Notes: a model not told the origin generated them from the letters alone. A stretch of DNA of 47,286 nucleotides from an uncultured Clostridia bacterium (GCA_947585965.1 CANPXK010000012.1:1-47286); one strand, 5' to 3'. Positions 3,018-38,051 are shown, numbered from the stretch's first letter. Numbers and translations are program-made.

Positions 3018-3205
3018 TGATATTTTTTTGGGCTGCCGCTTTTCTTACTGCGACAGCCCCTTATTTATTTTTTCATGTGAGAATGGAGCGGCTGACACGA
3101 ACCGCATACTCCTACCGTTTCCTGTCGTTGACAAACTATTTCCAAATGCAACAGACAACTGCACTTCTACCCACCAAAACGCTTTGTTTTCTCAACCATA
3201 GCAGT

Positions 3206-7496: not shown

Positions 7497-7590
7497 AATA
7501 ATGTGTATTTTCCATTATACCGTACAGATTTTAGAAGAAGATGAAAATTCGATTTTTTTGTTAAAAATCTTCGAGAATACGAATAAGCTA

Positions 7591-7618
7591 TTGTTTTTTG
7601 AAGATTGTGTGCTATAAT
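7591..7618 (+). promoter_or_regulatory. Sigma-70-like promoter for the regulator/BREX operon
   Basis: TTGTTT - 16 bp - TATAAT, 31 bp upstream of the ATG at 7650. Confidence 0.5.
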
Positions 7619-7649
7619 AGAAGACGAAATTGAAAGCGAGGCGAGGAGC

Positions 7650-7865
7650 ATGAAAATTTCATTCAACAAACTGTTCAAATTACTCATTGACCGAGGTATG
7701 TCCAAAAAGGATCTGCGCGAGGCTGCCGGCATCAGCCAAGGCTCGATGTGGAAGATGGGCAAAAATGAATTTGTCAGTCTGGATGTGCTGGTAAAAATTT
7801 GTAACACTCTTCAGGTTGACATCGGGGACATTATGGAGGTTATACTGAAAGAACCTCAAGGTTGA
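7650..7865 (+). CDS. XRE/Cro-like HTH transcriptional regulator
   Basis: 71 aa: MKISFNKLFKLLIDRGMSKKDLREAAGISQGSMWKMGKNEFVSLDVLVKICNTLQVDIGDIMEVI; RBS gaggag upstream. Confidence 0.9.
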   Translation: MKISFNKLFKLLIDRGMSKKDLREAAGISQGSMWKMGKNEFVSLDVLVKICNTLQVDIGDIMEVILKEPQG

Positions 7866-18906: not shown

Positions 18907-19557
18907 TCAGGAAAATGAGTTACGGATTTTACTTATCCATAATGAAAAATGCTTACATTCAGAGAGCATTCTATCCATATCTATATGTTGAGCCACAAGA
19001 ATTCCCTGTCTTACTTTTGAATAACCGCTGATTATGCTTTGAATTCTCTTAGACGGTGATGTATCGGGGGAGTTGTTTATATGTTCCGGTGTTTCTGCAT
19101 TATCTCTTATATCCTGTAATTTTTTTACAGATTTGTTATCCGAAATTATGGCAAAAGCCTGTGGATCGGAAAATAACAATCCTTCAAATTCATGCAGTAT
19201 CAGATTGAATATCAAATTGTTGCAACCTATATCTTTTGTAATTGCTGTTTCAATGTATTCTATGCGTTTATAAATATCAACTTCTCTGTAATCAATTTCG
19301 GGAGTATCAGCAGGCATTCCATAGTAGTCCAGCATTGTAGTGACAATTGCATTGGGATTTTGACAAAGCCTGCGCAGTTCATCTTTTATAACATTATAAT
19401 TGCTTACCCCGCCTTTATAAGATTTGGTAGGAGTGCGTTTTGTCTTATGGATAATCGGTGTGGTATAAATACCCATTCTTGATAAATACGGGGAAAGGAT
19501 ATTATTTACAAAAGCCTCTTCTGTTTGACCTTCACAGTAGATATATAGAGTTTTCAT
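18907..19557 (-). CDS. DUF4276 family (TOPRIM-like) protein
   Basis: 'MKTLYIYCEGQTEEAFVNNILSPYL', 'TTMLDYYGMP', 'LILHEFEGLLFSDP' are DUF4276 motifs; ATGA overlap with the upstream AAA gene. Confidence 0.85.
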   Translation of the reverse strand: MKTLYIYCEGQTEEAFVNNILSPYLSRMGIYTTPIIHKTKRTPTKSYKGGVSNYNVIKDELRRLCQNPNAIVTTMLDYYGMPADTPEIDYREVDIYKRIEYIETAITKDIGCNNLIFNLILHEFEGLLFSDPQAFAIISDNKSVKKLQDIRDNAETPEHINNSPDTSPSKRIQSIISGYSKVRQGILVAQHIDMDRMLSECKHFSLWISKIRNSFS

Positions 19558-20651
19558 TTTGAGAGTCTGCCTCCCAAAATGTTTTTTTGCCACAAATCAC
19601 CTAATGAATAGTCTTCAAGCCAGATTTTAAGTTCATCTTCATTCAATCTGTTAAAAGTTGAAGCACCGTTTGCGTCTTTGTTTACAACAACAACATCTTC
19701 TGCGCTGAACTCGTTTAACAGTTCAACAGATTGAGTAGAAATAATTATCTGTTTCTTTTTGGAAATTTGTTTCACCATTTCGGCAAATATTGTAATTGCA
19801 TAGGGATGAAGTCCGAGCTCGGGTTCATCAACAATTATAGTCGCAGGCTGTAGGCTTGCAGGCTGCAGCAGCAATGTAGTAAGACAGATAAAACGCAAAG
19901 TTCCGTCCGAAAGCTGTGAAGCGTTAAAGATATCCTCGCAGCCCTTTTGATGCCATTTCAGAGTAATGAGCTCGTTATTTCCTTCTTTAGGTTCGAGCAT
20001 GAAGTCATCAAAATATGGGGCTATCAAGCGAATTGTTTCAACAATTTCATTGAAACTTTTTTCATAGTTTTTTTTGAGTCTGTATAAAAAAGCCGCAAGA
20101 TTGGAAGCGTCGAACATAAGCGATTGATTATTTGATATGTTATGTTCCTGCTTTACTTTAGCTGTTCGGCTTGTATCGTGAAAGTGATATACACGCCACA
20201 TTTTTTTCTCTAATATCGGAAAAACATAATTGTTTATTCCGTTAGAAACACCATTTTCCCACTTTGATTCCTCATGCGCCGTGGATACGGTGCTTTCATA
20301 AGTTCCCCGGCCGTAAAATTCTTTTTTAAAAATAATTCTGTTATCATCTGTTGGTACAAGATAGAAACCGTATGAATTATTATTGAAAAAGGCTTCAAAA
20401 TAGATTTCCTCCGTTTCCTTTCTGCCATTGTAGAATAAAGAGTTGATTCCGCACTGTTGAGTATACAGCTGTAATTCTTTCTTTAAAATGCTTTGGAGTA
20501 ACGTAAAAGCGGAAATAAAATTAGATTTTCCGGCGCCGTTGCTTCCAATCAGTAAATTTATGCTGTCAAGATTTAAGTCACATTTTTTTATAGATTTATA
20601 GCCGCTTATACATATCCGGCTTAATTGTCCGGATTTTATACTCATACTCAC
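19554..20651 (-). CDS. AAA family ATPase (AAA_21/OLD-like, SMC-type)
   Basis: 'NLLIGSNGAGKSNFISAF', 'QLSDGTLRFICLTTLLLQP', 'TIIVDEPELGLHPYAI', 'IISTQSVELLNEF'. Confidence 0.93.
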   Translation of the reverse strand: MSMSIKSGQLSRICISGYKSIKKCDLNLDSINLLIGSNGAGKSNFISAFTLLQSILKKELQLYTQQCGINSLFYNGRKETEEIYFEAFFNNNSYGFYLVPTDDNRIIFKKEFYGRGTYESTVSTAHEESKWENGVSNGINNYVFPILEKKMWRVYHFHDTSRTAKVKQEHNISNNQSLMFDASNLAAFLYRLKKNYEKSFNEIVETIRLIAPYFDDFMLEPKEGNNELITLKWHQKGCEDIFNASQLSDGTLRFICLTTLLLQPASLQPATIIVDEPELGLHPYAITIFAEMVKQISKKKQIIISTQSVELLNEFSAEDVVVVNKDANGASTFNRLNEDELKIWLEDYSLGDLWQKNILGGRLSK

Positions 20652-21581: not shown

Positions 21582-22352
21582 TCACTTATCCTCTGTGCGG
21601 ATGGTAATTGAATTGATAATCGGTTGTTCGTTTTCGGGAATGGTTCCGTTGTCATCCGTGGGCTTTGCATCTTCACATACCTTATCAACAACATCCATAC
21701 CCTCGGTTACATGACCGAATCCGGCATAATCTCCGTCAAGGTGCTGACTGTCCTTCTGGACTATAAAAAATTGTGAGGATGCACTGTTCGGATCTGTAGT
21801 TCTTGCCATTGATATCGTACCTCTTGTGTGGGAAATTGTATTGTTATAGCCGTTTGAGCTGAATTCGCCCACGATTGTTTCCGGTTCCTCCATGCCTTCC
21901 TTAGCCTGACCGCCCTGCATCATGAATCCCTCCATGATCCTGTGGAATGTAAGACCGTCGTAAAATTTTGAATTTGCAAGCTTTACAAAGTTTTCTACGG
22001 TCTTAGGAGCGGACTCGGGGTCGAGCTCAACGGTGATTTTCCCGTAATCCTTTATATCAATGTCCGCATAATAAGTTTTGGTTTCGTCTATTATTGATTC
22101 GCCTGAGTCAAGTGAGCTTTGAGTGCTTTCCTCTGCGGAGGATTGTGAGCCGCTGCTGTCGTTTGACAATACAAGTGCAAGAATAAGCAATCCTACTATA
22201 ATTACTACAACAACGATTGCCGTTATTATGCCCGTTTTTAGCTTCTTACCCGTTTCCTTTACGTCAACAGCCGGCTGCTGCTTTTTTGGTGCGGGTGTTG
22301 TCGGAGTTTTTTTCCTTGGAGCCGGTCCTTTTTTCTTTCTGTTCTTAGCCAT
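21582..22352 (-). CDS. Membrane-anchored cyclophilin-type peptidyl-prolyl isomerase
   Basis: N-terminal TM; 'FHRIMEGFMMQGGQ', 'RGTISMARTTDPNSASSQFFIVQKDSQHLDGDYAGFGHV'. Confidence 0.95.
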   Translation of the reverse strand: MAKNRKKKGPAPRKKTPTTPAPKKQQPAVDVKETGKKLKTGIITAIVVVVIIVGLLILALVLSNDSSGSQSSAEESTQSSLDSGESIIDETKTYYADIDIKDYGKITVELDPESAPKTVENFVKLANSKFYDGLTFHRIMEGFMMQGGQAKEGMEEPETIVGEFSSNGYNNTISHTRGTISMARTTDPNSASSQFFIVQKDSQHLDGDYAGFGHVTEGMDVVDKVCEDAKPTDDNGTIPENEQPIINSITIRTEDK

Positions 22353-22780
22353 TGTTTCAAATCCTTTCTTTGCTGTATGATCTTACAGCCTGTTTTAAAT
22401 TCTTATATCCTGATCCGGATAACAATAAGACAATCATAACATATTATGCGTAAAAATTCAATTTATATTTTTGATAAATAAACTTGTTGCATGGAGGTGT
22501 ACGTTATGTCGGTAAATTACATTAAGATTACAATGTGGGAGAGTGGGAAAGCGGATATCGGTTTATGCGGGAAACGGAATATTAACGTATATCTTTTCCA
22601 TGTATGGCTCCCCCGTTTTTACCCCATATCCCCACATTGTCATTCAAAGATGTTTGTTAATTGTGTTCTATGTCAGATGGCTGCACCGGACTTTCCCTTA
22701 TCCTCCATACTTCACCTTGTTGCCCTCGTTTATTATATATTCTCTGTTTTAAAAAATATTTTTTATTTATTTATAAAAAG

Positions 22781-22808
22781 TTGACCTCTGCCGGTCAATT
22801 TTTTTTGT
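22781..22808 (+). terminator. Hairpin plus T-run just upstream of the phage-like cluster
   Basis: ttgacc-tctgcc-ggtcaa-tttttttt. Confidence 0.6.
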
Positions 22809-22840: not shown

Positions 22841-23380
22841 TTGAATAAAAAAGAGAGGGGGCTTACTCCGAGAGAAAAACAGTTTTGTTGTGTTTATGCA
22901 AACAGCGGAAATTATAAGGAAGCTGCCTTATGTGCGGGTTTCGGCAATCCGGATAAAACAGGTGCCGCTCTTTTGCTAAGGGATGATATTAATGCGGAGA
23001 TAGAAAAAATATATAAATCCCGCACAAGAAATTATCGTCAAAGGGCAAGGGCAGGATATGAAAGACTTGCTTTCGGGAATGTTTCGGATGCTGTCAGGCT
23101 TATGTTTGAGGATAACCCATCGGAAAAAGCCCTTGAATCATATGATCTGTTCAATGTTGCGGAAATTAAAAGACCGAAGGATGGTGCGATGGAAATTAAG
23201 TTTTTCGACAGGATCAAGGCTCTTGAAAAGCTTGAATTTGCCGATGACAGCGAACAGAAAGGTATATCGGATTTTTATAGTGCCCTTATAGGCGGAATCA
23301 ACGGTTCTGATAAGAAAAACAGTACATCCGAAAATAAAGAATGTATTGAATCTGAAATTCCGGGGGATGAGATTATTTGA
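22841..23380 (+). CDS. Phage terminase small subunit
   Basis: TTG start after gaaaggggg; 'LTPREKQFCCVYANSGNYKEAALCAGFGNPDKTGAALLLRDDINAEI'; immediately upstream of the large subunit. Confidence 0.8.
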   Translation: MNKKERGLTPREKQFCCVYANSGNYKEAALCAGFGNPDKTGAALLLRDDINAEIEKIYKSRTRNYRQRARAGYERLAFGNVSDAVRLMFEDNPSEKALESYDLFNVAEIKRPKDGAMEIKFFDRIKALEKLEFADDSEQKGISDFYSALIGGINGSDKKNSTSENKECIESEIPGDEII

Positions 23381-24624
23381 AGTTCAGGACTTTTTCCGAA
23401 AAACAGCTTAAACTTCTGAGGTGGTGGTGTGACGGAAGTGAAAGTTCCGACTGCGACGGTATTATATGCGATGGTGCCGTCAGGAGCGGTAAGACCTTAT
23501 GTATGAGTGTATCATTTATTTCGTGGGCAATGCTTAATTTTGAAGGCGGCAGTTTTGCAATATGCGGAAAGACTATACGTTCGGTTAAGAGAAATCTGGT
23601 CGTTCCTCTGCTTAATGTATTGGCGGATCTGGGGTTTGAGGTCAGGGACAGGCTTTCGTCAAATATACTGGAGGTGCAGACAGGAAGCAGGAAAAACATA
23701 TTCTATCTCTTCGGAGGAAGAGATGAGGGCTCGGCGGCACTTATACAGGGAATAACACTTTGCGGAGTACTTTTTGACGAGGCTGCTCTTATGCCGAGGT
23801 CGTTTGTTGAACAGGCTGTGGCGAGATGCTCGGTTGAGGAATCAAAGCTGTGGTTTAACTGTAATCCTGAATATCCTCAGCATTGGTTCTGTACCGAATG
23901 GGTAAAAAAGGTCAGGGAGAAAAATCTTTTTTATATCCATTTTACTATGGAGGATAATCCTTCCTTGTCCGAGGCTATGCTCAGACGCTATCAGAAGCTT
24001 TATTCGGGCAGCTTTTATCAGAGGTATGTCCTCGGAAAATGGACGGCTTCGGAGGGACTTGTATATCCGTTTATGTCGGACGAAAAAATGCTGTATGATG
24101 AGCCGAAGGGCGGATTTGACGATTTTGTTATTTCCTGCGACTATGGTACTGTCAACCCGTCTTCGTTCGGTCTGTGGGGACTCAGCGGGGGTATCTGGTA
24201 CAGGATAAACGAATATTATTACAGCTCACGCAGGGAGGGCTCTTCACGCACTGATGAGGAGCATTATAAAGGCTTATGTGAACTTGCCGGGGAGAGGAAG
24301 ATATCGGAAGTGATTGTTGATCCGTCCGCGGCAAGCTTTATCGAAGTTATAAAAAGACATGGCAGATTCAGAGTGACGGCGGCAAAGAATAATGTAACCG
24401 ATGGTATAAGGCAGGTTAGCAGTGCACTTAAACAGGGGGATATAAGAATATGCCGCTGCTGTATTGATTGTATAAAAGAGTTCGGTATGTATCGTTGGGA
24501 AAGCGGGGGAAGAGATATTCCGATGAAAGAAAATGATCATGCTATGGATGATGTGAGGTATTTTGTTGCTACATATCTGAACAGATATGATGACAGCATA
24601 TATGCACTGGCTTCAATCAGATAA
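23377..24624 (+). CDS. Phage terminase large subunit
   Basis: Walker A 'CDGAVRSGKTLCMS', Walker B 'GVLFDEAALMP', nuclease motifs 'ISCDYGTVNPSSFGLW', 'EVIVDPSAASF', 'HAMDDVRYFVATYL'. Confidence 0.95.
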   Translation: MKFRTFSEKQLKLLRWWCDGSESSDCDGIICDGAVRSGKTLCMSVSFISWAMLNFEGGSFAICGKTIRSVKRNLVVPLLNVLADLGFEVRDRLSSNILEVQTGSRKNIFYLFGGRDEGSAALIQGITLCGVLFDEAALMPRSFVEQAVARCSVEESKLWFNCNPEYPQHWFCTEWVKKVREKNLFYIHFTMEDNPSLSEAMLRRYQKLYSGSFYQRYVLGKWTASEGLVYPFMSDEKMLYDEPKGGFDDFVISCDYGTVNPSSFGLWGLSGGIWYRINEYYYSSRREGSSRTDEEHYKGLCELAGERKISEVIVDPSAASFIEVIKRHGRFRVTAAKNNVTDGIRQVSSALKQGDIRICRCCIDCIKEFGMYRWESGGRDIPMKENDHAMDDVRYFVATYLNRYDDSIYALASIR

Positions 24625-24684
24625 TACCGACATAGCGGAGTCATATATACATAACCGTTTCATGCGGAAAAGAGGTGATAAGAA

Positions 24685-25833
24685 TTGGGTTGGTTCAGAA
24701 ATAAAAACAGAAATAAGACGAGCGGATTTGCCGTTCAGACGGCAGGGAGCGAGGGATATAATCACCCGTTTTCCTGTATCAGAAATTACAGCCCGCTTGG
24801 CTGCTTTGAAAAAAATCTGTATCGCTCGCTAAGGGAATCCATTCCCGTAATTGATGCGGCGATATACAAGATCATAAGACTGACAGGCAATTTTAAGGTT
24901 CAATGCTCCGATAAAAAAGCCGAAAGAAAATTAGAAGAATTTCTGAGAAATGTCAGGGTCAACGGAATATCCTATGGTGTTGACAGTTTTATATCACAGT
25001 ACCTTGAGCAAATGCTTACATACGGTACCGCCGTAGGCGAGATAGTACTCGGTGTGGACGGTAATATTGCGGCACTTTATAACAGCTCACTCGATAATGT
25101 AGAGCTTTGCTGCGGTGAGAATCCTTTTGATGTATGTATTAATGTCGTAGATGAAACAGGAGTGAAAAAGCCCGTAAGATACCCCGAGCTTATATTGTGC
25201 AGTGCAATTATGCCGGAGCCGGGGAAGCTGTACGGCACCTCCGTATTGAAGGGTCTCCCGTTTGTGAGCGATATATTCCTTAAAATTATCAATGCTATCG
25301 GGACAAACTGGGACAGAGTGGGAAATGTCCGATTTGCCGTCACATATAAGCCGACTGACGGCGACAGAGGAAGTACAAAGGAAAAGGCTATGCTTATAGC
25401 CTCGGAATGGAGCAAGGCTATGAAAAGCAGAGAGCCGAGGGATTTCGTGTCCGTGGGGGATGTCAGCATAAAGGTAATAGGTGCGGATAATCAGATACCC
25501 GACAGCGAGGTTCCTGTGCGGCAGATACTTGAACAAATCGTTGCCAAGCTGTCAATACCTCCGTTCCTTTTGGGACTTACATGGTCAACAACCGAAAGGA
25601 TGTCTTCACAACAGGCGGATATCCTCACAAGTGAGCTTGAATATTACAGGCGTGTGCTTAATGAAAGCATAAGAAAAATATGCCGTACATTTCTGCGGCT
25701 TAACGGTTTTAATGAACAGTGCGAACTTGTATGGGATAATATCAATCTTCAGGACGAGGTTGAGCTTGCAAAGTCAAGATTATATAACGCTCAGGCGGAG
25801 GAAATAGAAAATCGTATTAAAAAGGGAGAATGA
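24685..25833 (+). CDS. Phage portal protein
   Basis: TTG start after agaggtgat; 'VLKGLPFVSDIFLKIINAIGTNWDRVGNVRFAVTYKP', 'LSIPPFLLGLTWSTTERMSSQQADILTSELEYYRR'. Confidence 0.85.
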   Translation: MGWFRNKNRNKTSGFAVQTAGSEGYNHPFSCIRNYSPLGCFEKNLYRSLRESIPVIDAAIYKIIRLTGNFKVQCSDKKAERKLEEFLRNVRVNGISYGVDSFISQYLEQMLTYGTAVGEIVLGVDGNIAALYNSSLDNVELCCGENPFDVCINVVDETGVKKPVRYPELILCSAIMPEPGKLYGTSVLKGLPFVSDIFLKIINAIGTNWDRVGNVRFAVTYKPTDGDRGSTKEKAMLIASEWSKAMKSREPRDFVSVGDVSIKVIGADNQIPDSEVPVRQILEQIVAKLSIPPFLLGLTWSTTERMSSQQADILTSELEYYRRVLNESIRKICRTFLRLNGFNEQCELVWDNINLQDEVELAKSRLYNAQAEEIENRIKKGE

Positions 25834-26777
25834 ATGTGGAAAATGAAAACAGCAATCTGAAAGCAGGTGAACTGGAGCTTATCAACAGCTATACACGCAG
25901 ACCTCTTAAGGCTGATGAGGTATATGCCTTTTCCGTTGTTTTGTGTGATAACGAAATTGACAGGGATTTTGAAAAATTTTCTGATTCCGCACTAAAAAAA
26001 ATGGAAAAACTGTTTGTAGGGGTAACCGGAGTTCTTGACCATGACCCGAAGAGTAAAAACCAGACAGCAAGGATTTTTTCGTGCAGAGCGGAGGAAGTAT
26101 CGGGAAAAAAGACATTGGACGGGCATCAGTATATACGTCTTGCCGCAAGGGCATATATGCCGAGGACAGAGGGCAATAAGGATTTTATTATGCAGCTTGA
26201 CAGCGGCATAAAAAAGGAGGTAAGTGTCGGCTGCTCGATAGCTAAGAGGATATGCTCAATCTGCGGCTGCGAAAACGGCTCATGCGGACATATCAGGGGA
26301 AGAAGCTATGACGGTGAGGTGTGCCATAAAATACTCGAAGAACCGACGGATGCTTATGAATGGTCATTTGTTGCAGTCCCTGCACAAAAAGCGGCAGGCG
26401 TTATCAAATCATATAAAAAAGGAGAGAACGGTTTGGATATTGAAAAAAGACTTTTCAGCGGTGAGGCTGAAAGCTTCAGTGTTGACGAAATGAATATTAT
26501 AGCGGAAAAATTCCGCATATTGCAGGAAAAGGCTGCCGATGGTGAGGTATACAGAAGACGGCTTGAGGCTGATATAAATAAGCTTGCCGCCTTTACCCTT
26601 CCGCAGCTTAAAAGAGATGTGCTCGACTTCATTACAAGTAAAATGAATGCGGTGCAGCTTGAAAATCTCAAGAAGGCCCTTTCGGAGGGAAGGGAAAATA
26701 ATATGCCGCTTAAGCCCCAGCTTAGTGCGGCGGTAAAAAACATGAGAACGGATAATAATGCTTTTAAAAATATTTGA
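25830..26777 (+). CDS. Phage head maturation protease/scaffold (XkdF-like)
   Basis: 'IKKEVSVGCSIAKRICSICGCENGSCGHIRG...EEPTDAYEWSFVAVPAQKAAGVIKSYKK'; sits between portal and capsid. Confidence 0.7.
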   Translation: MNVENENSNLKAGELELINSYTRRPLKADEVYAFSVVLCDNEIDRDFEKFSDSALKKMEKLFVGVTGVLDHDPKSKNQTARIFSCRAEEVSGKKTLDGHQYIRLAARAYMPRTEGNKDFIMQLDSGIKKEVSVGCSIAKRICSICGCENGSCGHIRGRSYDGEVCHKILEEPTDAYEWSFVAVPAQKAAGVIKSYKKGENGLDIEKRLFSGEAESFSVDEMNIIAEKFRILQEKAADGEVYRRRLEADINKLAAFTLPQLKRDVLDFITSKMNAVQLENLKKALSEGRENNMPLKPQLSAAVKNMRTDNNAFKNI

Positions 26778-26789
26778 GGAGGATAATAT

Positions 26790-27122
26790 ATGAATGTTTC
26801 ATTTAACGGCTTCGGGGAAAATGTGGTTACATTTGAAACGGAGGGAAGCGTGAGTGCCGGTATGCCGGTTATGGTATCGGCAAGCGGAAAGGTTAAGGCG
26901 GCAAGCGGTGTATTCTGCGGAATATGTTTGGGTGTAAGAAACGGTTATGCCGCAGTGCAGCTTAGCGGATATGTTAAAACCGCTTATGATACCGCCCCGG
27001 CTGTCGGGTATACAAAGCTCGTCGGAAAAAACGGAAAAATAAGTACGGATGCATCGGACGGCAGGGAGTACCTTGTTGTTGATATTGATACCGTTGCCAA
27101 AACAGCGGGAATTATACTTTGA
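26790..27122 (+). CDS. Capsid decoration-like protein
   Basis: 110-aa beta-rich protein between protease and capsid: 'VSAGMPVMVSASGKVKAASGVFCGICLGVRNGYAAVQLSGYV'. Confidence 0.6.
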   Translation: MNVSFNGFGENVVTFETEGSVSAGMPVMVSASGKVKAASGVFCGICLGVRNGYAAVQLSGYVKTAYDTAPAVGYTKLVGKNGKISTDASDGREYLVVDIDTVAKTAGIIL

Positions 27123-27144
27123 TTTGAAGGGAGATTATTGATAT

Positions 27145-28155
27145 ATGGCATATTATGACACTATAAAGCCGGAAAAGGGTATGTACGGCAACGGTACAAA
27201 ATCCTTTACGCAGATTCTCGAGGAGCTTGACCCGTCGGAAAATTATAAGGGAAGTGAGCTTGAGGGATTGGACGCATATCAGCGTCAGCTTAAAAGATAT
27301 GATATCAGGGTAGGGGGAAGCAATTCGGATTGTGTGCAGAAATTTTTCCAAAGCTCGGACAGTGCGGCACTTTTTCCGGAATATGTATCAAGAGCGGTAA
27401 GGCAGGGTATTGAAAGGGCGGATGTTCTTTCGGATATTATTGCTGCTAAGACCGTGATTGACGGCATGGATTACAGATCCGTTGTTTCCGATCCCTCCGA
27501 TGACGATAAACAGCTTAAGCCTGTTGCGGAGGGAGCATATCTTCCGCAGACGACCATAAAAACAAGCGGTCAGCTTGTTAAGCTGCAAAAAAGAGGAAGA
27601 ATGCTTGTTGCATCTTATGAGGCAATTAAATTCCAGAAACTTGACCTGTTTACCGTAACACTCAGGCAAATAGGGGCACATATTGCCCGTGAACAGCTTA
27701 AGGATGCAGTGGAGGTTCTTATAAACGGCGATTCGACAACATCTGCTGCCGGTACTGTTTCCGCCGCGTCTGTCGGAAATATTTCCTATGATGATCTTGT
27801 AAAGCTATGGGCGGAACTTTCGCCTTATGAAATGAATACGCTTCTTGCACCGACAGCGGTTATGACAAAGCTTCTTTCAATGAGTGAAATGAAGGATTCC
27901 CGTGCGGGACTTGATTTCCACGGCAGCGGAAAAATGATTACACCGCTCGGGGCGAAGCTTTTACATATTCCATCAATTACGGGAAATAAGATTATAGGTC
28001 TTGATAAAAACTGTGCGCTTGAAATGGTACAGTCCGGAGATGTTGTGACCGATTATGATAAGCTCATAGACAGGCAGCTTGAAAGAGCGGCAATAAGCTG
28101 TATTACGGGCTTTGCAAAAATATTCCCTGATTCGGTTAAGGTGCTTACCTGTTGA
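27145..28155 (+). CDS. Phage major capsid protein (HK97-like)
   Basis: 336 aa; 'TVIDGMDYRSVVSDPSDDDKQLKPVAEGAYLPQTTIKTSGQLVKLQKRGRMLVASYEAIK...'; position after protease and decoration genes. Confidence 0.8.
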   Translation: MAYYDTIKPEKGMYGNGTKSFTQILEELDPSENYKGSELEGLDAYQRQLKRYDIRVGGSNSDCVQKFFQSSDSAALFPEYVSRAVRQGIERADVLSDIIAAKTVIDGMDYRSVVSDPSDDDKQLKPVAEGAYLPQTTIKTSGQLVKLQKRGRMLVASYEAIKFQKLDLFTVTLRQIGAHIAREQLKDAVEVLINGDSTTSAAGTVSAASVGNISYDDLVKLWAELSPYEMNTLLAPTAVMTKLLSMSEMKDSRAGLDFHGSGKMITPLGAKLLHIPSITGNKIIGLDKNCALEMVQSGDVVTDYDKLIDRQLERAAISCITGFAKIFPDSVKVLTC

Positions 28156-28170
28156 TTGGGGGAATGACGG

Positions 28171-28536
28171 TTGAATATGGAGGAAATAATGAGAATATTC
28201 TGCCGTCTGTCCGGTCTGGATTATGAGGAAGCGGCTGATTTTCGTTTTATGTGTGATACTGCACTGAGCTACATAATGTCGCGCATAAAACACGGCTCGG
28301 ATATAAGATGCTACGGCGGCAGGATCAATTTTGCCGCCGCCGCTCTTGCATATTACAGATACGTTTTATGGAGTCTGACCGATGGAGTTATAAATGAGAT
28401 AAATGTCGGGGAAATAAGAGTAAAGCACGGCGGATTCAGTGAGCTTGATGCGGCGGACAGACTTTGCAGAGAAGCTTTGGCGGATATAGGGGAAATTCTT
28501 GAAAGTGAGGATTTTGTATTTAATTCATTTTCGTAA
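28171..28536 (+). CDS. Putative head-tail connector
   Basis: 121-aa helical protein immediately downstream of the capsid gene. Confidence 0.5.
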   Translation: MNMEEIMRIFCRLSGLDYEEAADFRFMCDTALSYIMSRIKHGSDIRCYGGRINFAAAALAYYRYVLWSLTDGVINEINVGEIRVKHGGFSELDAADRLCREALADIGEILESEDFVFNSFS

Positions 28537-28551
28537 TATATAGGTGGTTAT

Positions 28552-28878
28552 ATGAAAAAGCTTATAGATAAGGCTATTGAGAGGTTGGGAAAGGTTTGCT
28601 ATATAAAAAGTAAAAAAGGCTGTGCCGTTATTTTTCCCGAGAGGTATTCTCAGAGGATAAACGGAGGGGTAAGTATTTCTCCTCACGGCAGAGGGGATCC
28701 CGAAAAATATTTTATATACTGCAATTTTGAGATAGGGAATGGTGTACAGTACGGCGATATTGTCAGTGATACGGAAAATGCATACTATATATTGTGGAGC
28801 GATGAGGTAAAAAGCAAATACGGAGATTATGTGAAGATCTGTGCAAGGAAAATAAAAAGGGGTGATAAGTATATATGA
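28552..28878 (+). CDS. Putative head-closure/neck protein
   Basis: 108 aa in connector-module position. Confidence 0.4.
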   Translation: MKKLIDKAIERLGKVCYIKSKKGCAVIFPERYSQRINGGVSISPHGRGDPEKYFIYCNFEIGNGVQYGDIVSDTENAYYILWSDEVKSKYGDYVKICARKIKRGDKYI

Positions 28879-29273
28879 CATTTGCTGAAGAAATGTATTT
28901 TAAGGCTTTGGATGATCCTGCATTTTCGGATATGAAGCCGGTGCTTGAAAAGTGTGCGGGGGAACTTCCGTTTCCTCTGGAAAAGCCATATGTAAGTTTC
29001 GGAACGGAATACGAAAACGGAAGCTGTCTTTTGGGGAGCGGTATGGTTGTCAGTGAGATTATGACGGTAAATGTTGCGGTGGATGAGGAAATTAACGAGG
29101 GATATTGCAGGGAATGTGCAAAAGCAGTGACGCTTGCCGTTATGAGTCTTGATACGGGGAAAAGAATAATCTCCGTATCGGCAGGCGGGTGTGAGTATAA
29201 TGATGCAGTCGGATGCTACAGCATAAAGCTTAAATTCGGACTTCGTGAGGTACTTCGGGACGGAGGTGACTGA
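28875..29273 (+). CDS. Putative tail completion/neck protein
   Basis: 132 aa, ATGA overlap with the previous gene; connector-module position. Confidence 0.4.
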   Translation: MTFAEEMYFKALDDPAFSDMKPVLEKCAGELPFPLEKPYVSFGTEYENGSCLLGSGMVVSEIMTVNVAVDEEINEGYCRECAKAVTLAVMSLDTGKRIISVSAGGCEYNDAVGCYSIKLKFGLREVLRDGGD

Positions 29274-29659
29274 TCATATATTCTGAAGAGGAGAGCCTAT
29301 GCGGCAGAGATGTAAATATATATATTGACGGGAAAAAGCTGCTTCAGGCAGAAAGTATGGAAATACGCAAAAAATCGGAAATACACAATATCCGTTCATG
29401 CTTTTTTGGAGATGATATCGCACACATAAGAAGGCGCTGCAGCTATAAGGCAACTATGACGGGACTTGAATTCAAAAAGCCGTTTGAGTGCTGTTGTTTT
29501 GCCGATCTTGATAATTTTACCATGACGGTTGAAATTGACAGGAAAAGATATACCCTTAAAAACTGTATTTGGGATGATTTTTATGCGGCGGCAGACAGGG
29601 AGAAATTCAGGGAACATATAAGTGTTATTGCTATGGATATGGAATCGGAGGATATATGA
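29270..29659 (+). CDS. Putative short tail (tube-like) protein; start codon uncertain
   Basis: Frame is open from 29270 with SD ggagg; '...GRDVNIYIDGKKLLQAESMEIRKKSEIHNIRSCFFGDD...'; first ATG only at 29357. Confidence 0.4.
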   Translation: MIIYSEEESLCGRDVNIYIDGKKLLQAESMEIRKKSEIHNIRSCFFGDDIAHIRRRCSYKATMTGLEFKKPFECCCFADLDNFTMTVEIDRKRYTLKNCIWDDFYAAADREKFREHISVIAMDMESEDI

Positions 29660-29811
29660 AGGAAATAAATCTTGAACTTACAGAGGATATGGCTGACGAG
29701 CTTGGAAGGGATAAGACGGCACAGCTGAGGGATATATCGGAAATGATAAGGTGCGATATGCTCAGGTACAATAAAATTCTTGATGTTGAGGAGGAGATTG
29801 ATGAGGACTGA
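29656..29811 (+). CDS. Small protein (51 aa) in the tail-chaperone position
   Basis: MKEINLELTEDMADELGRDKTAQLRDISEMIRCDMLRYNKILDVEEEIDED; ATGA overlap upstream, 11-bp overlap downstream; not in the supplied ORF list. Confidence 0.6.
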   Translation: MKEINLELTEDMADELGRDKTAQLRDISEMIRCDMLRYNKILDVEEEIDED

Positions 29812-30322
29812 CGGAAAAATGAGTTATAAGGATTATGTCTTCCCTGTTAATCCTTCGGTTATAAAAATAAGTCATGGCAGAAAAATTGCAAAAACCAATA
29901 TTCCTGACGGATATGATACGGTCAGTGATATGGGATCTTCATATCGGATAATAAGCGGAGAAGGAGAGTTTTTCGGCGAGAAATGTGTTGATGATTTTCT
30001 TGCCCTTAAAGCTGTTATGGATAAGGGCGGCGGGGGAATGCTTTATCTTCCCTCGCAAAAGCCTGTTTATGCAATGTTTGAGGAGCTGGAGCTTATTGCT
30101 GAGGACTGTGAGGGGGTTATACGGTATAAATTTAAATTTATTGAAAGTTTTGAAAAGCATTTTTCGGAGAGATATTTGTATTGCTATGGAAACGGGTGTG
30201 ATTGTTTATGGGATATTTCCTATAAATACGGGATACATATTGATATTCTGACGGAGTTTAATCCCCATATAAAAAGACCTGATATACCTGTACTTCCTTG
30301 GGAGAAGGTGAAGCTTTGCTGA
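29801..30322 (+). CDS. LysM-like baseplate hub protein (XkdP-like)
   Basis: 'DYVFPVNPSVIKISHGRKIAKTNIPDGYDTVSDMG...ISGEGEFFGE' and C-terminal LysM-like 'CDCLWDISYKYGIHIDILTEFNPHIKRPDIPVLPWEKVKLC'. Confidence 0.7.
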   Translation: MRTDGKMSYKDYVFPVNPSVIKISHGRKIAKTNIPDGYDTVSDMGSSYRIISGEGEFFGEKCVDDFLALKAVMDKGGGGMLYLPSQKPVYAMFEELELIAEDCEGVIRYKFKFIESFEKHFSERYLYCYGNGCDCLWDISYKYGIHIDILTEFNPHIKRPDIPVLPWEKVKLC

Positions 30323-31233
30323 AATACATATTAAAAGATATAAATGATGTTGAAACTGCATTTGAACATCCTCTCAGTATGAGTATTGTTTCATCGGAGG
30401 ATGCACCTGCCGACAGTTTCAGAGCTGTTTTTGCTGTGAGCGGAAAAATTCCGGAATTATATTCCGTCAGGGTGCTTGACGGAGGAGAAGTTGTTTTTTT
30501 CGGATTTGTTGACGAGCAGACGGAAACGGTGGCGGACAAGGGAATTTTGCTGGAAATAAGTGCGAGAGGTCCCGAGTCTGTATTGCTTGACAATGAAGCA
30601 ATGCCTCAGACCTATTGTATGCCGACGATGAAAATATTATTTGAAAGACATTTTGAACCGCTGGGTTTTAAGGGGGTCGTAGGAGGAGAAAGAGCCTTTC
30701 CGGGGGATCTTGTTATTTCAAAGGGAATGAGCGAATGGCAGGTGCTCAGCAATTACTGCGAAAAATTTTGTAAGTCCAGACCGGTTGTAAGAAGCGATCT
30801 TGTTATAGAAACGGGGGAAAACTCGCAGCCGGATACGATATATCTCGGAGAAAACAGCTCCATAATAAAAATCAGCAGGACGATAAGCAGAAATGCACCC
30901 GTATCTGACATATATGTAAGGACTTATTTTGCCGGGGGATATGAAATGTATGTCGGAAACGAAACGGCAAAAAAACACAGGATACAAAGAAAGAGGTATT
31001 TTAACTGTGCGGACAGCAAATACAGATCGGTGCTTTATGCGGATAATATAATAAAGAATTCCAACGGTAAATATGAAAGATATACCATAGACCTGAGCGG
31101 TATACTTGGCTGCAAGGTCGGAGATACCCTGATGGTGCGGAACAGGAGGGGAAAAATGAAGATTGACGAGCTTCACTATATACTTGACGGCAGTGGGGAG
31201 CATACGAGAATTTATGCGGAGGTGATTGTGTAA
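30298..31233 (+). CDS. Baseplate hub/late control protein (XkdQ/gpD-like)
   Basis: 'VRVLDGGEVVFFGFVDEQTETVADKGILLEISARGPESVLLDNEAMPQTY', 'GMSEWQVLSNYCEKFCKSRPVV'. Confidence 0.7.
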   Translation: MGEGEALLKYILKDINDVETAFEHPLSMSIVSSEDAPADSFRAVFAVSGKIPELYSVRVLDGGEVVFFGFVDEQTETVADKGILLEISARGPESVLLDNEAMPQTYCMPTMKILFERHFEPLGFKGVVGGERAFPGDLVISKGMSEWQVLSNYCEKFCKSRPVVRSDLVIETGENSQPDTIYLGENSSIIKISRTISRNAPVSDIYVRTYFAGGYEMYVGNETAKKHRIQRKRYFNCADSKYRSVLYADNIIKNSNGKYERYTIDLSGILGCKVGDTLMVRNRRGKMKIDELHYILDGSGEHTRIYAEVIV

Positions 31234-31589
31234 TGTGGATATCAAAAAATATTATTTCCCGCGGCAATGGCGGCACTGCTTCCAGCGGTGCTGTGGGTCA
31301 CAGTGCAAATATGAGGGTTTCTGCCACATCCGCGAGAGGGATAGAAAAATGTTCAATGATGACGCCCCCGGGGATTTACAGTCTTCCTACTAACAATCAG
31401 ACATCGGTTGTGCTGCAGACACAGAACGGTCCCGTTTGTCTCGGTATGAGAATGAACAGATATTACGGGATAATTGAACCCGGGGAGATTATTATGGAAT
31501 CTGAAGGGGGAGCTCAGATAAAGCTTTCAAATGACGGTATGGTCTATATAAACGGAAGGGGGTTTGCTTCGGATGGATACGGCGATTAA
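31233..31589 (+). CDS. Baseplate-associated (gp45/spike-like) protein
   Basis: 'TPPGIYSLPTNNQTSVVLQTQNGPVCLGMRMN...LEPGEI..ESEGGAQIKLSNDGMVYINGRGF'-like beta-helix pattern. Confidence 0.55.
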   Translation: MWISKNIISRGNGGTASSGAVGHSANMRVSATSARGIEKCSMMTPPGIYSLPTNNQTSVVLQTQNGPVCLGMRMNRYYGIIEPGEIIMESEGGAQIKLSNDGMVYINGRGFASDGYGD

Positions 31590-31908
31590 TCCGGGAGGTG
31601 ATTTTGATACCGATATAATTGGCAGACCTTATACGATTGACGGAACTGATGTGCTTCTGCAAAAAATATATATATGCCTGTCGGGACACAGGGGAGGTTT
31701 TATTTATGATCGTGAACTTGGCGGGGAACTGTATAAAATCGTACTTTCAGATGATAATGCGGAGGAACTTCTGGAGATTCGGGCAAGGGAGGCGGTCAAG
31801 GATATCAGGGAGGCGGAAGTATGCGGTGTACGGATAAGGGACGGGGCTGCATATGTTTTTGTCAATATAGACGACAGGATATATAATATTGCTTTGAGGG
31901 GGATTTAA
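31573..31908 (+). CDS. Baseplate wedge protein (XkdS/DUF2634-like)
   Basis: 'YTIDGTDVLLQKIYICLSGHRGGFIYDRELGGELYKI...AREAVKDIREAEVCGVRI'; upstream of baseplate J. Confidence 0.65.
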   Translation: MDTAINPGGDFDTDIIGRPYTIDGTDVLLQKIYICLSGHRGGFIYDRELGGELYKIVLSDDNAEELLEIRAREAVKDIREAEVCGVRIRDGAAYVFVNIDDRIYNIALRGI

Positions 31909-31909
31909 G

Positions 31910-32965
31910 ATGGCATACAGCTATGATGAAATACTTGAGAGAATGGAGAATAAATATTTTGAACTGACGGGGCATGAGGCGGAGGAATGTGGGGATATCG
32001 GAATAAGGTTAAAGTTGCTTGCGGGTGAGCTTTATTCCTTGGGAAGTAATTTCGATTGGCTGAAAAGACAGCTTCTGTTCACCACGGCAACAGGTGAGCA
32101 GCTTGATATGTATGCAATGCAGAGGGGAATAAAAAGAATAAGGGGAAATAAATCAAGCGGAGAATTGTTTATTGTACTTGATACTGCATTGGATTATGAA
32201 ATGGAGATTCCCGAGGGGACTGTATGTACGACTGCGGACGGAGGACTGAATTTTATTATAGATAAGGCGACGAAGGTGACGAAGGGAAGTGTAAGAACCA
32301 TATGTCATGCCTGTGCGGAGCATACGGGTAAAAAATATAATGTCGCAAAAAATACCATTACAACCATGGTTACATATTTTTCCGCAGGAATGTATATAGA
32401 GAACGGAACTGCCTTTACAGGCGGTACTGATGATGAAACCGATGAGGAACTGAGAAAAAGGATCGAAGCGACCTACAGAAATATATCCAATGGTGCAAAT
32501 GCGGCATATTATCGCAGACTTGCGGAAAGTGTGGACGGGGTTCAATCGTCAGCCGTTGTGGAGAGCAGTACGGGAGAAGAAGGTGCAACTATTTATGTTG
32601 CGGGCAGAGGTGCGGTGTGCAGCGGGAGTTGTATTTCAAAAGTTTATAAAATTATAGAAGAGGGGAGATGTATCGGTCATAAAATCAGAGTAGTTAATGC
32701 CGGCACAGCATTATATAATGTTGATGTCGGAATATCGGTGAAATCAGGTTATGACAGTCAGGAGGTTATGGAAAACGTCAGAAACAGCATAATAAATTAT
32801 TTTAACGCACTGAATGTCGGACAGGGGGTGATTCTTGCAGAGATAGGCTGTGCCCTTATGAATACCGATGGGGTAGAAAATTATGTATTCAATAATATGC
32901 AGGATAAAAGTGCGGCTGAGTCTGTACTTATAATTATTGGAAATCTTACGGTAAACACTATGTGA
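31910..32965 (+). CDS. Baseplate J family protein (XkdT-like)
   Basis: 'ATGEQLDMYAMQRGIKR', 'IPEGTVCTTADGGLNFIID', 'TGGTDDETDEELRKRIEATYRNISNGANAAYYRRLAESVDGVQSSAVV'. Confidence 0.93.
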   Translation: MAYSYDEILERMENKYFELTGHEAEECGDIGIRLKLLAGELYSLGSNFDWLKRQLLFTTATGEQLDMYAMQRGIKRIRGNKSSGELFIVLDTALDYEMEIPEGTVCTTADGGLNFIIDKATKVTKGSVRTICHACAEHTGKKYNVAKNTITTMVTYFSAGMYIENGTAFTGGTDDETDEELRKRIEATYRNISNGANAAYYRRLAESVDGVQSSAVVESSTGEEGATIYVAGRGAVCSGSCISKVYKIIEEGRCIGHKIRVVNAGTALYNVDVGISVKSGYDSQEVMENVRNSIINYFNALNVGQGVILAEIGCALMNTDGVENYVFNNMQDKSAAESVLIIIGNLTVNTM

Positions 32966-32975
32966 GGTGAGATAT

Positions 32976-33446
32976 TTGGGTGAATTTGAAATGATGTCAA
33001 AACGGCTTGCACAGACAGGTCTTTATGATATATCCGAGGGAAGCGGGGTATATGCTGAGCTGATGTCCTATGCTGTAGGATTGGATCTTTTTTTCGATGA
33101 ACTGGAGAAAATCAGGAGGGATATTTTTTTTGATATATCGGAGGGCAGTGAGGTCGGAATATATGAGAGGCTTATGTCTGTGTGTAATCTTGATAAATCT
33201 GCAGAGGGAAGAAAAAGGAGCATAATGAGTATGCTTTCGGTGACTGACAGAGATTTTACGCTTGAGGGGATTAAGAAGCTTTTGGGTATTTATAATATTG
33301 ACGGTGATGTTTCCGAGAACGGCAGATATATTAATATTAATTGTCGGAGCAGACTGAGCGAGAGTGAGGAAAAGGCAATAAACGATGATATACAGCGATT
33401 TGCACCTCTTCATACCAAAATATATGTATACGGTGCGGGTCAGTAG
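32976..33446 (+). CDS. Tail protein, XkdU/YmfQ (DUF2313-like)
   Basis: Directly follows baseplate J; 'AYAVGLDLFFDELEKIRRDIFFDISEGSEVGIYERLMSV'-type pattern; TTG start after aggtgag. Confidence 0.7.
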   Translation: MGEFEMMSKRLAQTGLYDISEGSGVYAELMSYAVGLDLFFDELEKIRRDIFFDISEGSEVGIYERLMSVCNLDKSAEGRKRSIMSMLSVTDRDFTLEGIKKLLGIYNIDGDVSENGRYININCRSRLSESEEKAINDDIQRFAPLHTKIYVYGAGQ

Positions 33447-33494
33447 GGTAAATTAAAGATTGTATCTTACATATACGAAAATAAATACAAAAAG

Positions 33495-33528
33495 AGGCTG
33501 TCCGTTTTTGGCGGACAGCCTTAAAATT
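33495..33528. terminator. Terminator between the phage-like cluster and a convergent surface protein gene
   Basis: aggctgtccg-N7-cggacagcct followed by a T/A-rich tract. Confidence 0.75.
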
Positions 33529-33554: not shown

Positions 33555-34355
33555 TTAGTCCTTAGAGGAAGCCTTCTTTGTCATAACAACAGCAGTGCCG
33601 AGAGAAGCAAGAACAACAGCTACAAGAGCTATAGCAGATGTTGTATCACCTGTTGCAGGTGTTGTTGTATCCGGATCAGTGGTTGTGTCAGCAGGAGTTT
33701 CAGCAGGTGTTGATTCTGCGGGAGTTTCAGCAGGTGTCGATTCTGCGGGAGTTTCAGCAGGTGTCGACTCTGCGGGAGTTGACTCTGCGGGAGCCTCATC
33801 GGTTACCTTTTCAAACTGATCATAACCTGCGTAGAGGAATTCCCACTCCACTTCGCTGGGATCGAGCTCAGCGTTCGGATCTGCTACAGCATCAGGGTTC
33901 ATCTGGTTTGTGTCAAGGAATACTCTGAACTTTATGTGGTCGCCTGCCTGTACATCCTCTTTGATTGCAAGGTTGCACTGGCTGTCAAGTACACGAACGT
34001 GCTCAGGCTCGTAGGTTGCCCAGTTTACATCCCAGCTATTGTCAAGACGAACCTTGAACTGGAAGTGCTGCTCACCTGTGGGCTTATCATCTTTGTTCCA
34101 GTCAGTTATCCAGTCAGCCTCAACGGAGGGAATATCAATCATAGCTTCCCAAATGCCATCTCCGTCATCATCACTCATGGGGATATCCTTACCTGCTTCC
34201 CAGTTCGTAAAGGTGCCGGAAACACCAACAGTATGACCTTCACTTGTGATCTTGTCACTTCCGGCCGATGCCGATACGCTTATTGCCGTAACAGCTGTCA
34301 AAGAAGCAACGAGTGCCGAACAAATAGCTACTTTAAGTATTTTTGAATTTCTCAT
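33555..34355 (-). CDS. Secreted, C-terminally anchored X25-like carbohydrate-binding protein
   Basis: Signal peptide; X25-like 'HTVGVSGTFTNWEAGKDIPMSDDDGDGIWEAMIDIP...FQFKVRLDNSWDVNWATYE'; TPAES linker; C-terminal 'TPATGDTTSAIALVAVVLASLGTAVVMTKK'. Confidence 0.75.
   Translation of the reverse strand: MRNSKILKVAICSALVASLTAVTAISVSASAGSDKITSEGHTVGVSGTFTNWEAGKDIPMSDDDGDGIWEAMIDIPSVEADWITDWNKDDKPTGEQHFQFKVRLDNSWDVNWATYEPEHVRVLDSQCNLAIKEDVQAGDHIKFRVFLDTNQMNPDAVADPNAELDPSEVEWEFLYAGYDQFEKVTDEAPAESTPAESTPAETPAESTPAETPAESTPAETPADTTTDPDTTTPATGDTTSAIALVAVVLASLGTAVVMTKKASSKD
33691..33771. repeat. 3 x 27-bp tandem repeat encoding TPAETPAES
   Basis: gcRggagtttcagcaggtgtYgaYtct repeated three times, plus a partial copy downstream. 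Confidence 0.9.
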
Positions 34356-36227: not shown

Positions 36228-38051
36228 ATGCAAACAAAGAAGATTATCAGTATTGCTTTGACAGCTGCTCTTGTTAGCTCGGTTGCTGCTGTTGCTACAC
36301 TGTCAGCATCTGCTGTTGACGTTCTGCCGGATGGATTTTCAAAGGCAGATCTCGATGGTCACACAATGGGTATCATCGGTATCAACGGATGGGAAGTAGA
36401 TGCAGCTGCTATGACAGATGCTGATGGAGACGGCATTTACTTAGGTGTAGTTGAGGATGTTGCAGCCGGAAGTTATGAGTTCAAGATTCGTCTTGACGGT
36501 GCTTGGGATTACAGCTGGGGTGTATACGAGGAAGCAGAGGATCGTACATTCAACAGCCAGACAAACTGCTCACTTACCTTGGGCAGCACTTCAGACGTAG
36601 TTGTAGTTCTTGATACAAACGGTGCGGATGCTAATGTTTGGTCAGTGGCTTATTTTGCACTTCCCGATGAGGGCGGCGACCAGAGCGGAGCTTTTGTAGC
36701 AGCAGATCATGCCTACAGTGCAATAGGTGACTTCAGCTCATGGGACGACGGCGATGTTGCCATGACAGAGATTGCAAAAGGAGTATATTGTGCTAACATA
36801 GGTGATGTAGCTGCAACTCAGGGCTTTAAGGTTCGTGCAGACGGTGCATGGGACTATAGCTGGGGCGTATACGAGGCAGCAGAGGATCGTACACAGAACA
36901 GCCAGACCAACTGCTCAATAGCAGAGGATGCTAAGAACGTACATCTTATACTTAACACAAACGGCGCTGACTTCCAGGTATGGCAGGTAGCTTATTTCTA
37001 TACTGCTCCGGACGGATCACTCAAGTTTGTAGATGTAGGTCCTAACGCTGCTACACCTGATGAACCGTCAACAGACGAGTCTTCAACAGATGAACCGTCA
37101 ACGGATGAGCCTTCAACAGACGAGTCTTCGACAGATGAGCCTTCAACAGACGAGCCTTCGACAGACGAGTCTACAGAGCCTTCAACGGAAGATCCGGACG
37201 AGCCGTCTATCGAGGAGAACTATACGACACAGATTTCAGATTATATTTTCTTTGATAACAGCGAAACAAAGTGGGAAACAGTACACGCTCATTGGTGGAA
37301 TTCTGACTATACAAAGATAGTTGACCTTGAGGGCAACCTTTGGCCGGCAGAGCCGCTTGATGAAAACGGTAATCAGGATTTCGCCAATGCTTGGCCGGGA
37401 ACTGAAATGACTAATATTGAGGGTACCGATATCTGGCAGGCAAGAGTTCCGTTCGGTGCTACAAAGATTATTTTCAACAATGGTAAGCTTGATGCTGAAA
37501 TAAACAATGAAGTTATTCCTGACGAGCAGGTTGAGGTATTGGCAAACGGTGACGTGACCATGGACAACCTGAATGCAGCAGGTGTTGGTGTTCAGACAGC
37601 AGATCTTGACTTCGATTCAACAGCTAATGCAGGTCAGATATACAAGCTCGATACTTCTGTACTTCCCACAGCTGCACGTGGTATTTATAAGAACAGAAAG
37701 TGGACATTCTCAGCAGAAGCAGGTACATGGGATGCTTACGTGGGTGAGTACATTTCCGAGTTACTTAACGAAGCTCCTGTAGTAAGTGAAGATCCTTCCG
37801 TAGATCCCGAGCCCAGTGACGACAGTGAAGAGCCCGGAGAACCCAGCGGTACAGATGTACCGGGCAATGGCACAAGCACACCTGGTGGCACAAATACACC
37901 CGGTGACGGTGGCAACAATAATGGTGGTTCAAGCACAGGTGACGGAGTAGTTTCAACAGGCGATACAGCAGTACCCGCAGTATTTGCAGTTATTGCTATT
38001 GCAGCTCTCGGTGTAGCTATTGTAGCAGCTAAGAAAAAAGAAAGAGCTTAA
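36228..38051 (+). CDS. Surface starch-binding-type protein: two X25-like modules, STDEP linker, CBM26-like module, C-terminal anchor
   Basis: Signal peptide; 'HTMGIIGINGWEVDAAAMTDADGDGIYLG...YEFKIRLDGAWDYSWGVYEEAEDRTFNSQTNCSL' repeated; 'YIFFDNSETKWETVHAHWWN...WPGTEMTNIEGTDIWQARVPFGATKIIFNNG' resembles CBM26; 'STGDTAVPAVFAVIAIAALGVAIVAAKKKERA'. Confidence 0.85.
   Translation: MQTKKIISIALTAALVSSVAAVATLSASAVDVLPDGFSKADLDGHTMGIIGINGWEVDAAAMTDADGDGIYLGVVEDVAAGSYEFKIRLDGAWDYSWGVYEEAEDRTFNSQTNCSLTLGSTSDVVVVLDTNGADANVWSVAYFALPDEGGDQSGAFVAADHAYSAIGDFSSWDDGDVAMTEIAKGVYCANIGDVAATQGFKVRADGAWDYSWGVYEAAEDRTQNSQTNCSIAEDAKNVHLILNTNGADFQVWQVAYFYTAPDGSLKFVDVGPNAATPDEPSTDESSTDEPSTDEPSTDESSTDEPSTDEPSTDESTEPSTEDPDEPSIEENYTTQISDYIFFDNSETKWETVHAHWWNSDYTKIVDLEGNLWPAEPLDENGNQDFANAWPGTEMTNIEGTDIWQARVPFGATKIIFNNGKLDAEINNEVIPDEQVEVLANGDVTMDNLNAAGVGVQTADLDFDSTANAGQIYKLDTSVLPTAARGIYKNRKWTFSAEAGTWDAYVGEYISELLNEAPVVSEDPSVDPEPSDDSEEPGEPSGTDVPGNGTSTPGGTNTPGDGGNNNGGSSTGDGVVSTGDTAVPAVFAVIAIAALGVAIVAAKKKERA
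37062..37191 (+). repeat. 15-bp-unit tandem repeat encoding (PSTDE/SSTDE)n
   Basis: ccgtcaacagacgag/tcttcaacagatgaa-type units repeated. Confidence 0.85.

Follow-up and report, generated by a model that had tools for sequence, protein, structure and literature searches.

There is an intact, phage-derived operon of 17 genes at positions 22841-33446 on the plus strand of a DNA stretch from an uncultured Clostridia bacterium (GCA_947585965.1 CANPXK010000012.1:1-47286). This stretch, hereafter the window, is 47,286 nucleotides long and is contig C12 of a 2.87-Mb genome (97.6% complete, 196 contigs) of a rumen or gut bacterium, which our analysis suggests is a member of the family Acutalibacteraceae. 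The operon is 10.6 kb in length and is likely to encode a domesticated, vertically inherited particle that resembles a gene transfer agent (GTA) and packages host DNA. Probable kin of the cluster have been described in one recent paper (PMC12946183).

The genes run in the order small terminase (TerS), large terminase (TerL), portal, protease, decoration protein, capsid, three connectors, tail tube, a 51-amino acid protein, XkdP-like protein, XkdQ-like hub, spike-like protein, XkdS-like protein, baseplate J and XkdU-like protein. No sheath, integrase, excisionase, repressor, replication or lysis genes were found inside or adjoining the cluster. An earlier note, made from the sequence of the window alone, had described the cluster as intact and had remarked on the missing sheath, lysis, integrase and repressor genes. 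Its open reading frames (ORFs) and coordinates are as claimed there, none of the missing genes was found, and the same order recurs in 20 other loci of the genus, so the arrangement is not due to chance.

Distribution, inheritance and selection

The capsid gene is found in 63 of the 64 genomes of the genus and the portal gene in 36 of the 37 that were searched for it. The genome without a capsid match (G011) has the portal gene, and the one without a portal match (G013) has the capsid gene, so that none of the 64 is without some part of the cluster. Copy number is one, save for a few genes split over contig ends. Gene order is the same and spacing near-constant in every one of the 20 other genus loci that were read. 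The 51-amino acid, XkdS-like, XkdU-like and decoration genes, which are among the smallest or fastest evolving, each went undetected in one or two loci by single-sequence search. Beyond the genus, the hub gene occurs in 46 of the 135 genera that were covered in the family. For the order, 168 genera were sampled, and 42 of them, from six families, carry the capsid gene. Sampling of the class gave only three matches outside the order, all of them divergent.

A tree built from TerL, portal, protease and capsid was compared with a tree of the host gene rpoB. The two have 13 of 27 splits in common, whereas 500 label shuffles never gave more than two; no split with support of at least 95 is in conflict, and distances in the two data sets correlate (Mantel r 0.90). 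Ratios of non-synonymous to synonymous substitution rates (dN/dS) were calculated for the window against its two nearest relatives and are approximate, because synonymous sites are near saturation. They mostly fall within 0.04-0.27, with 0.04-0.16 for most genes, 0.10-0.20 for TerS, and 0.15-0.38 for the 51-amino acid, spike-like and XkdS-like genes, compared with 0.07 for the neighbouring aroB. The chromosomal flanks of the cluster are fixed within clades. For example, in about 12 of 21 genus loci the next gene downstream encodes a homologue of the secreted protein that follows the cluster in the window, and seven other genera have an HflX-like GTPase (its identity read from sequence) downstream. 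The cluster is thus old, selected and vertically inherited. Conservation, congruence with rpoB, the dN/dS values and the fixed flanks together make decay, recent insertion and mobility as a satellite unlikely. The suggestions in the earlier note that the cluster is under selection rather than decaying, and that it has been domesticated, are both borne out by these results: most genes show purifying selection, and the cluster is present genus-wide, essentially in single copy, with conserved order and boundaries.

GTAs have been defined as having caudoviricete-derived proteins, a fully endogenized genome and mostly vertical inheritance with co-diversification of the host; in addition, their particles contain mostly random host DNA, their own locus is too long to be packaged in full, and the DNA is delivered to other cells (PMC9662315). 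Three of these six features can be judged from sequence and are seen here. Caudoviricete origin is indicated by family matches of the terminases, portal, capsid and baseplate proteins and by the fold of the tube, endogenization by the fixed chromosomal flanks, the missing integrase and the presence of the cluster in every genus genome, and co-diversification by the agreement with rpoB. We therefore speak of a cluster that probably works like a GTA, and make no claim to formal membership.

Virus catalogues hold many GTA-like host loci as viruses. At least 372 IMG/VR contigs (L293-L372 among them) encode a capsid of the cluster type, and many end exactly at the cluster boundaries, running from TerS to the XkdU-like gene or to a fibre gene. 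Similarly, GenBank entry MT835508.1 (L373), named 'Bacteriophage sp.', looks like a bacterial chromosome in which a reduced form of the cluster, without a tail, stops after the connectors. By eye, its neighbours are rnf-like genes and genes for a ribosomal L17-like protein and an RNA methyltransferase-like protein.

Head and packaging genes

All genes of the operon lie on the plus strand. TerS (22841..23380) starts with a TTG codon and matches Pfam Terminase_2 (7.9e-11) and PHROG 51 (1.8e-8). TerL (23377..24624) matches Pfam Terminase_6N (9.9e-15) and a PHROG family (2.1e-47), and its ATPase and nuclease motifs are intact, as the earlier note had read them. The Walker A lysine, the Walker B DE pair and the nuclease aspartates D255, D315 and D391 are identical in all 128 aligned loci, and on this sequence evidence packaging is under selection.

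The portal gene (24685..25833) matches PHROG 30703 (2.4e-134). The gene that follows (25830..26777) matches PHROG 16951 (3.1e-96), a family of unknown function, and is a probable head maturation protease given its position and conserved residues. Among these residues, C135, C142, C145, C152, H154 and C165 are invariant in 138 sequences, and this set of cysteines and histidine looks like a putative zinc-binding insert. A decoration or head structural protein (26790..27122; PHROG 4588, 1.2e-16) and the major capsid protein (27145..28155; Pfam Phage_capsid_4, 5.4e-19; PHROG 3922, 8e-95) complete the head. The order of the head module is altered in some loci, since decoration and capsid genes precede portal and protease genes in L252, and the capsid gene precedes the protease gene in L244.

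Three connector genes come next and are kept in all genus loci. Connector 1 (28171..28536) and connector 2 (28552..28881) have no family match and are assigned by position as head-tail adaptor and stopper, respectively. Connector 3 (28875..29273) is a probable tail terminator, because the corresponding region of a fused relative (L184) matches lambda gpU. Most gene identities proposed in the earlier note are thus supported by family matches, while the protease is assigned by position and residues, and the connectors and the XkdU-like protein by position.

Tail tube and tape-measure remnant

The tail tube gene (29276..29659) was identified by its predicted fold. An AlphaFold2 model that starts at 29276 (predicted local distance difference test, pLDDT, 86) is matched by Foldseek with probability 1.00 to the tubes of phage 812, monocin, diffocin, phiCD508 and RcGTA (6tba). 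The tube-like nature claimed in the earlier note is therefore confirmed. The gene is longer than a start at its first ATG, at 29357, would give: the frame is open from about 29276, homologues cover the upstream part, and the true start is probably a non-ATG codon upstream of 29357.

The earlier note had also held that there is no tape measure, which is at odds with the gene that follows the tube (29656..29811). Its 51-amino acid product carries the motif S-x5-D-x2-R-Y, which is common to the C-terminus of the 95-202-amino acid proteins found in the same slot in sheath-bearing relatives. This gene is best read, from motif and position, as a probable tape measure shrunk to its hub-binding end, given that sequences of this size are too short for strong match statistics.

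Comparison with related loci places this gene in a wider context. A sheath of about 340-370 amino acids is kept between terminator and tube in loci of other families, and in one of these (L250-L254) the tape-measure slot holds a protein of 163-202 amino acids that ends in R-D-A/S-R-R-Y/F. In the window's own family, three genera keep the sheath, and two of those have a protein of 95-96 amino acids in the slot. In sheathless genera, including that of the window, the slot is reduced to about 34-56 amino acids, mostly with the S-x5-D-x2-R-Y motif. There is no PF04984 match in the window's genome and no sheath ORF in 20 genus loci. The earlier note had reasoned that relatives with a sheath would mark this copy as a simple deletion. 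Such relatives do exist in other lineages, but there the sheath gene belongs to the same inherited cluster; its loss here is therefore old and common to the whole genus rather than confined to one copy.

There are 24 loci among 137 in which terminator and tube appear to form a single reading frame, as judged by ORF length, and this state has changed about nine times on the tree. The model of the fused protein of L184, which is of moderate confidence (pLDDT 78; predicted template modelling score 0.51), matches both the lambda gpU tail terminator and tail tubes. Fusion would make the numbers of terminator and tube subunits equal, and thus implies a single tube ring. The most reduced loci are L240-L244, which have nine genes and end at the hub, and L259 and L373, which end after the connectors.

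We interpret these loci as a series that leads from a sheath with a slot protein of 163-202 amino acids, through a sheath with about 95 amino acids, to a sheathless form with about 40-56 amino acids and a full baseplate, then to head plus hub, and finally to head plus connectors. On the tree there are several separate sheath changes (seven by parsimony) and not a single line of descent. On balance, we lean somewhat towards an order-wide GTA family that descends from a contractile-tailed phage, in which the tail was dismantled stepwise, one-ring terminator-tube fusions arose in several lineages, and a shared, covarying leader hairpin aids the control of expression.

Very few GTAs have been characterised to our knowledge, and the earliest account of one from the human gut dates from 2026. 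The distribution of the cluster suggests that GTA-like particles are old and have been retained by gut and rumen bacteria throughout a large order, beyond a single genus, and that capsid-mediated DNA exchange in this order may be routine. The reduction series would also be a rare ordered record of a contractile tail becoming a minimal delivery device, and it makes testable the question of how tail length is controlled when the tape measure has some 50 residues.

Baseplate genes

The remaining genes follow the XkdP-to-XkdU order of PBSX-type baseplates, with some assignments made by position. The XkdP-like protein (29801..30322) carries a LysM domain (Pfam DNA_circ_N, 3.1e-5; LysM, 3.2e-4). The XkdQ-like hub (30319..31233) matches the PHROG 177 baseplate hub family (2.2e-8), and its ORF is also open from a TTG at 30298. 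The spike-like protein (31233..31589) belongs to a family of unknown function (PHROG 25991, 5.2e-8) and owes its role to its position. For the XkdS/gp25-like protein (31564..31908) there is a match to Pfam Sheath_initiator below the cut-off (1.9e-4), and the baseplate J-like protein (31910..32965) matches Pfam Baseplate_J (4.7e-38) as the sole such match in the genome. The XkdU-like protein (32967..33446) has no family match and is assigned by position, and it is kept in nearly all genus loci. A second baseplate operon, searched for via baseplate J, was not found beyond the cluster in the window's genome, and one of 11 other genomes gave a match.

The PBSX element of Bacillus subtilis has the order portal, protease, capsid, connectors, tube, XkdP, XkdQ, XkdS, J (XkdT) and XkdU; it is vertically kept and packs host DNA. 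However, the sheath, the long tape measure and the linked lysis genes of PBSX are all absent from the cluster, and PBSX kills rather than transduces. The best reading of the ancestor is a contractile phage with a PBSX-type XkdP-U baseplate whose sheath was lost in this lineage.

Proposed particle and alternative explanations

We propose that some cells express the operon and that the capsid would be filled by a headful of mostly host DNA. The three connectors would join the head to a sheathless tube of one or two hexameric rings. Tape measures set tube length at 0.15 nm per residue, and the 51-amino acid protein would then specify about 8 nm. The baseplate and spike, together with the LysM-bearing protein, may engage the cell wall, and the result would be a delivery particle of podovirus-like form, the release of which would probably depend on unlinked lysis genes. 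A GTA-like packager and a very short-tailed, baseplate-bearing capsid, which the earlier note had listed as separate options, are compatible and jointly form the best reading.

Several observations weigh against this proposal, in which packaging and transfer are inferred from sequence. A search for a lysis module via one holin family revealed an ordinary siphophage prophage and orphan holins, none with a link to the cluster. Sister genera have a short fibre gene after XkdU, which a search made without a positive control in the same run did not find in any of the 64 genus genomes. As neither a lysis gene nor a regulator is linked to the cluster and the fibre is missing throughout the genus, release and receptor binding are unexplained. 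In addition, eight splits of the cluster tree conflict with rpoB at support of at least 70, which makes occasional exchange possible.

The particle might instead be a domesticated killing device, in which the packaged DNA is irrelevant and competitors are harmed as they are by PBSX in Bacillus. PBSX has the same baseplate order, is likewise vertically kept and also packs host DNA, and a killing role has been raised for the GTAs of Faecalibacterium (PMC12946183). However, killing driven by contraction is not possible with no sheath and almost no tube, the head and packaging genes are the most constrained, and some relatives lose the baseplate but keep the head genes, all of which leads us to regard this explanation as unlikely. 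Even less probable is a domesticated particle whose cargo, delivered or stored, is something else than DNA, or one that functions within the cell that makes it. That the transfer step is itself deduced, and that reduced relatives have no baseplate at all, would be in keeping with such a role, but both terminase subunits and the portal are kept and their catalytic residues are invariant.

The absence of several normal phage modules might also be taken as the mark of a defective prophage that is decaying after losing its sheath, tape measure and lysis genes. We give this very little credence, since frames are intact in essentially all genomes, selection is purifying, gene order is identical across the genus and the phylogeny agrees with rpoB. 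Comparably remote is a phage satellite that depends on a helper phage for tail or lysis parts; the earlier note had raised a satellite with borrowed tail parts. The same genome does harbour a separate siphophage-type prophage (G000:C23, L383) with a 1119-amino acid tape-measure-like gene, a holin, a glycosidase-type endolysin, excisionase-like genes and an integrase. The cluster, however, is vertically inherited with a host-like phylogeny, has no integrase or replication genes, occurs at about one copy per genome and encodes its own baseplate, and there is no contractile helper in the genome, which has neither a sheath gene nor another baseplate J. An active prophage is unlikely as well. A domesticated, GTA-like particle is therefore the explanation that we prefer.

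Relationship to known gene transfer agents

The closest published system is FpGTA I/II of Faecalibacterium, described in 2026 and near-ubiquitous in its genus (PMC12946183). Its particles are 40 nm in size, apparently tailless and described as podovirus-like, and contain about 9 kb of DNA (8.4-8.9 kb; PMC12946183). We liken it to the cluster, as probable kin, by description and not by sequence. Both occur in Gram-positive gut relatives and have an operon of about 10 kb with TerS, TerL, portal and capsid genes and no replication genes (PMC12946183). The FpGTA operon, however, has ten ORFs, with baseplate, fibre, holin and endolysin genes in a second operon (PMC12946183), whereas the cluster holds a full baseplate inside the main operon and has no linked fibre or lysis genes. 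For comparison, the cluster is 10.6 kb in length and the FpGTA capsid capacity is 8.4-8.9 kb (PMC12946183).

The accession numbers of the FpGTA capsid and portal proteins (RCH50849.1 and RCH50851.1) differ by two, as would be expected from the gene order portal, protease, capsid of L240-L243. These loci, together with L244, come from another family of the order and have homologous head genes and a similar layout. Tape measure, sheath and Acutalibacteraceae are not mentioned in the main text of PMC12946183, and no paper was returned when the literature was searched by text for GTAs together with Acutalibacteraceae, or together with Oscillospirales and prophage.

RcGTA is likewise a vertically inherited, phage-derived head-tail cluster that co-diversifies with its host (PMC9662315), and its tube (6tba) is among the fold matches noted above. 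It differs in that its tail is siphovirus-like and includes a tape measure, and its sequence showed no close relationship to the cluster. Alphaproteobacterial GTAs and the cluster are likely to have arisen independently.

Leader hairpin

A terminator-like scan identified a hairpin (GTTGACC...GGTCAAT followed by a T-tract; 22778..22808, plus strand) located about 23 nucleotides before the TerS Shine-Dalgarno sequence. Within the genus its form is TTGACC-N4-6-GGTCAA, and elsewhere there are TTCGACC or TTGCAT versions, again followed by a T-tract. Of 21 genus loci, 17 have a terminator-like hairpin upstream of TerS; the corresponding figure for random windows is 31 of 705. A few of the detections in genus loci represent a different, more distant hairpin, and most of the remaining loci show the element by eye.

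Six of the eight pairs change on both sides across 40 selected sequences. Because rows of this alignment were picked for having the hairpin, the paired percentage is biased upward, while the constant distance and the sequence variants are free of this bias. The hairpin has no Rfam match. It is not the terminator of the upstream gene, since that gene points the other way, and possible roles include those of an attenuator, an insulator or an operator. No SOS/LexA-like boxes were found upstream of TerS, and a scan of the window for sigma-70 promoters gave nothing above shuffled sequences.

Flanking genes and other observations

The operon is flanked on the left by a cyclophilin gene (21582-22352, minus strand). 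A scan for terminators placed a terminator-like hairpin, predicted on both strands, at the operon end (33494..33522). To its right, on the minus strand, is a gene (33555-34355) whose secreted product weakly matches starch-binding modules. A second such protein, secreted and of the starch-binding type with X25 and CBM26 domains, is encoded at 36228-38051 on the plus strand.

Near-identical orphan Holin_4_1 genes are located at 3037-3549 and 7252-7740 of another contig of the genome (G000:C88, L384), where they sit in an apparent sugar-nucleotide or capsule cluster. A third, partial copy is found at 3-212 of contig C173 (L385).

Some 2 kb upstream of the cluster, at 18907-20651 on the minus strand, there is a two-gene candidate for an anti-phage defence system of type HEC-01. 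PADLOC, which was applied to this flanking ATPase pair, reports an AAA ATPase (3.6e-144) and a DUF4276 protein (2.3e-77). In the sister genome G021 the candidate pair is missing between aroB and the gene that corresponds to position 20769.

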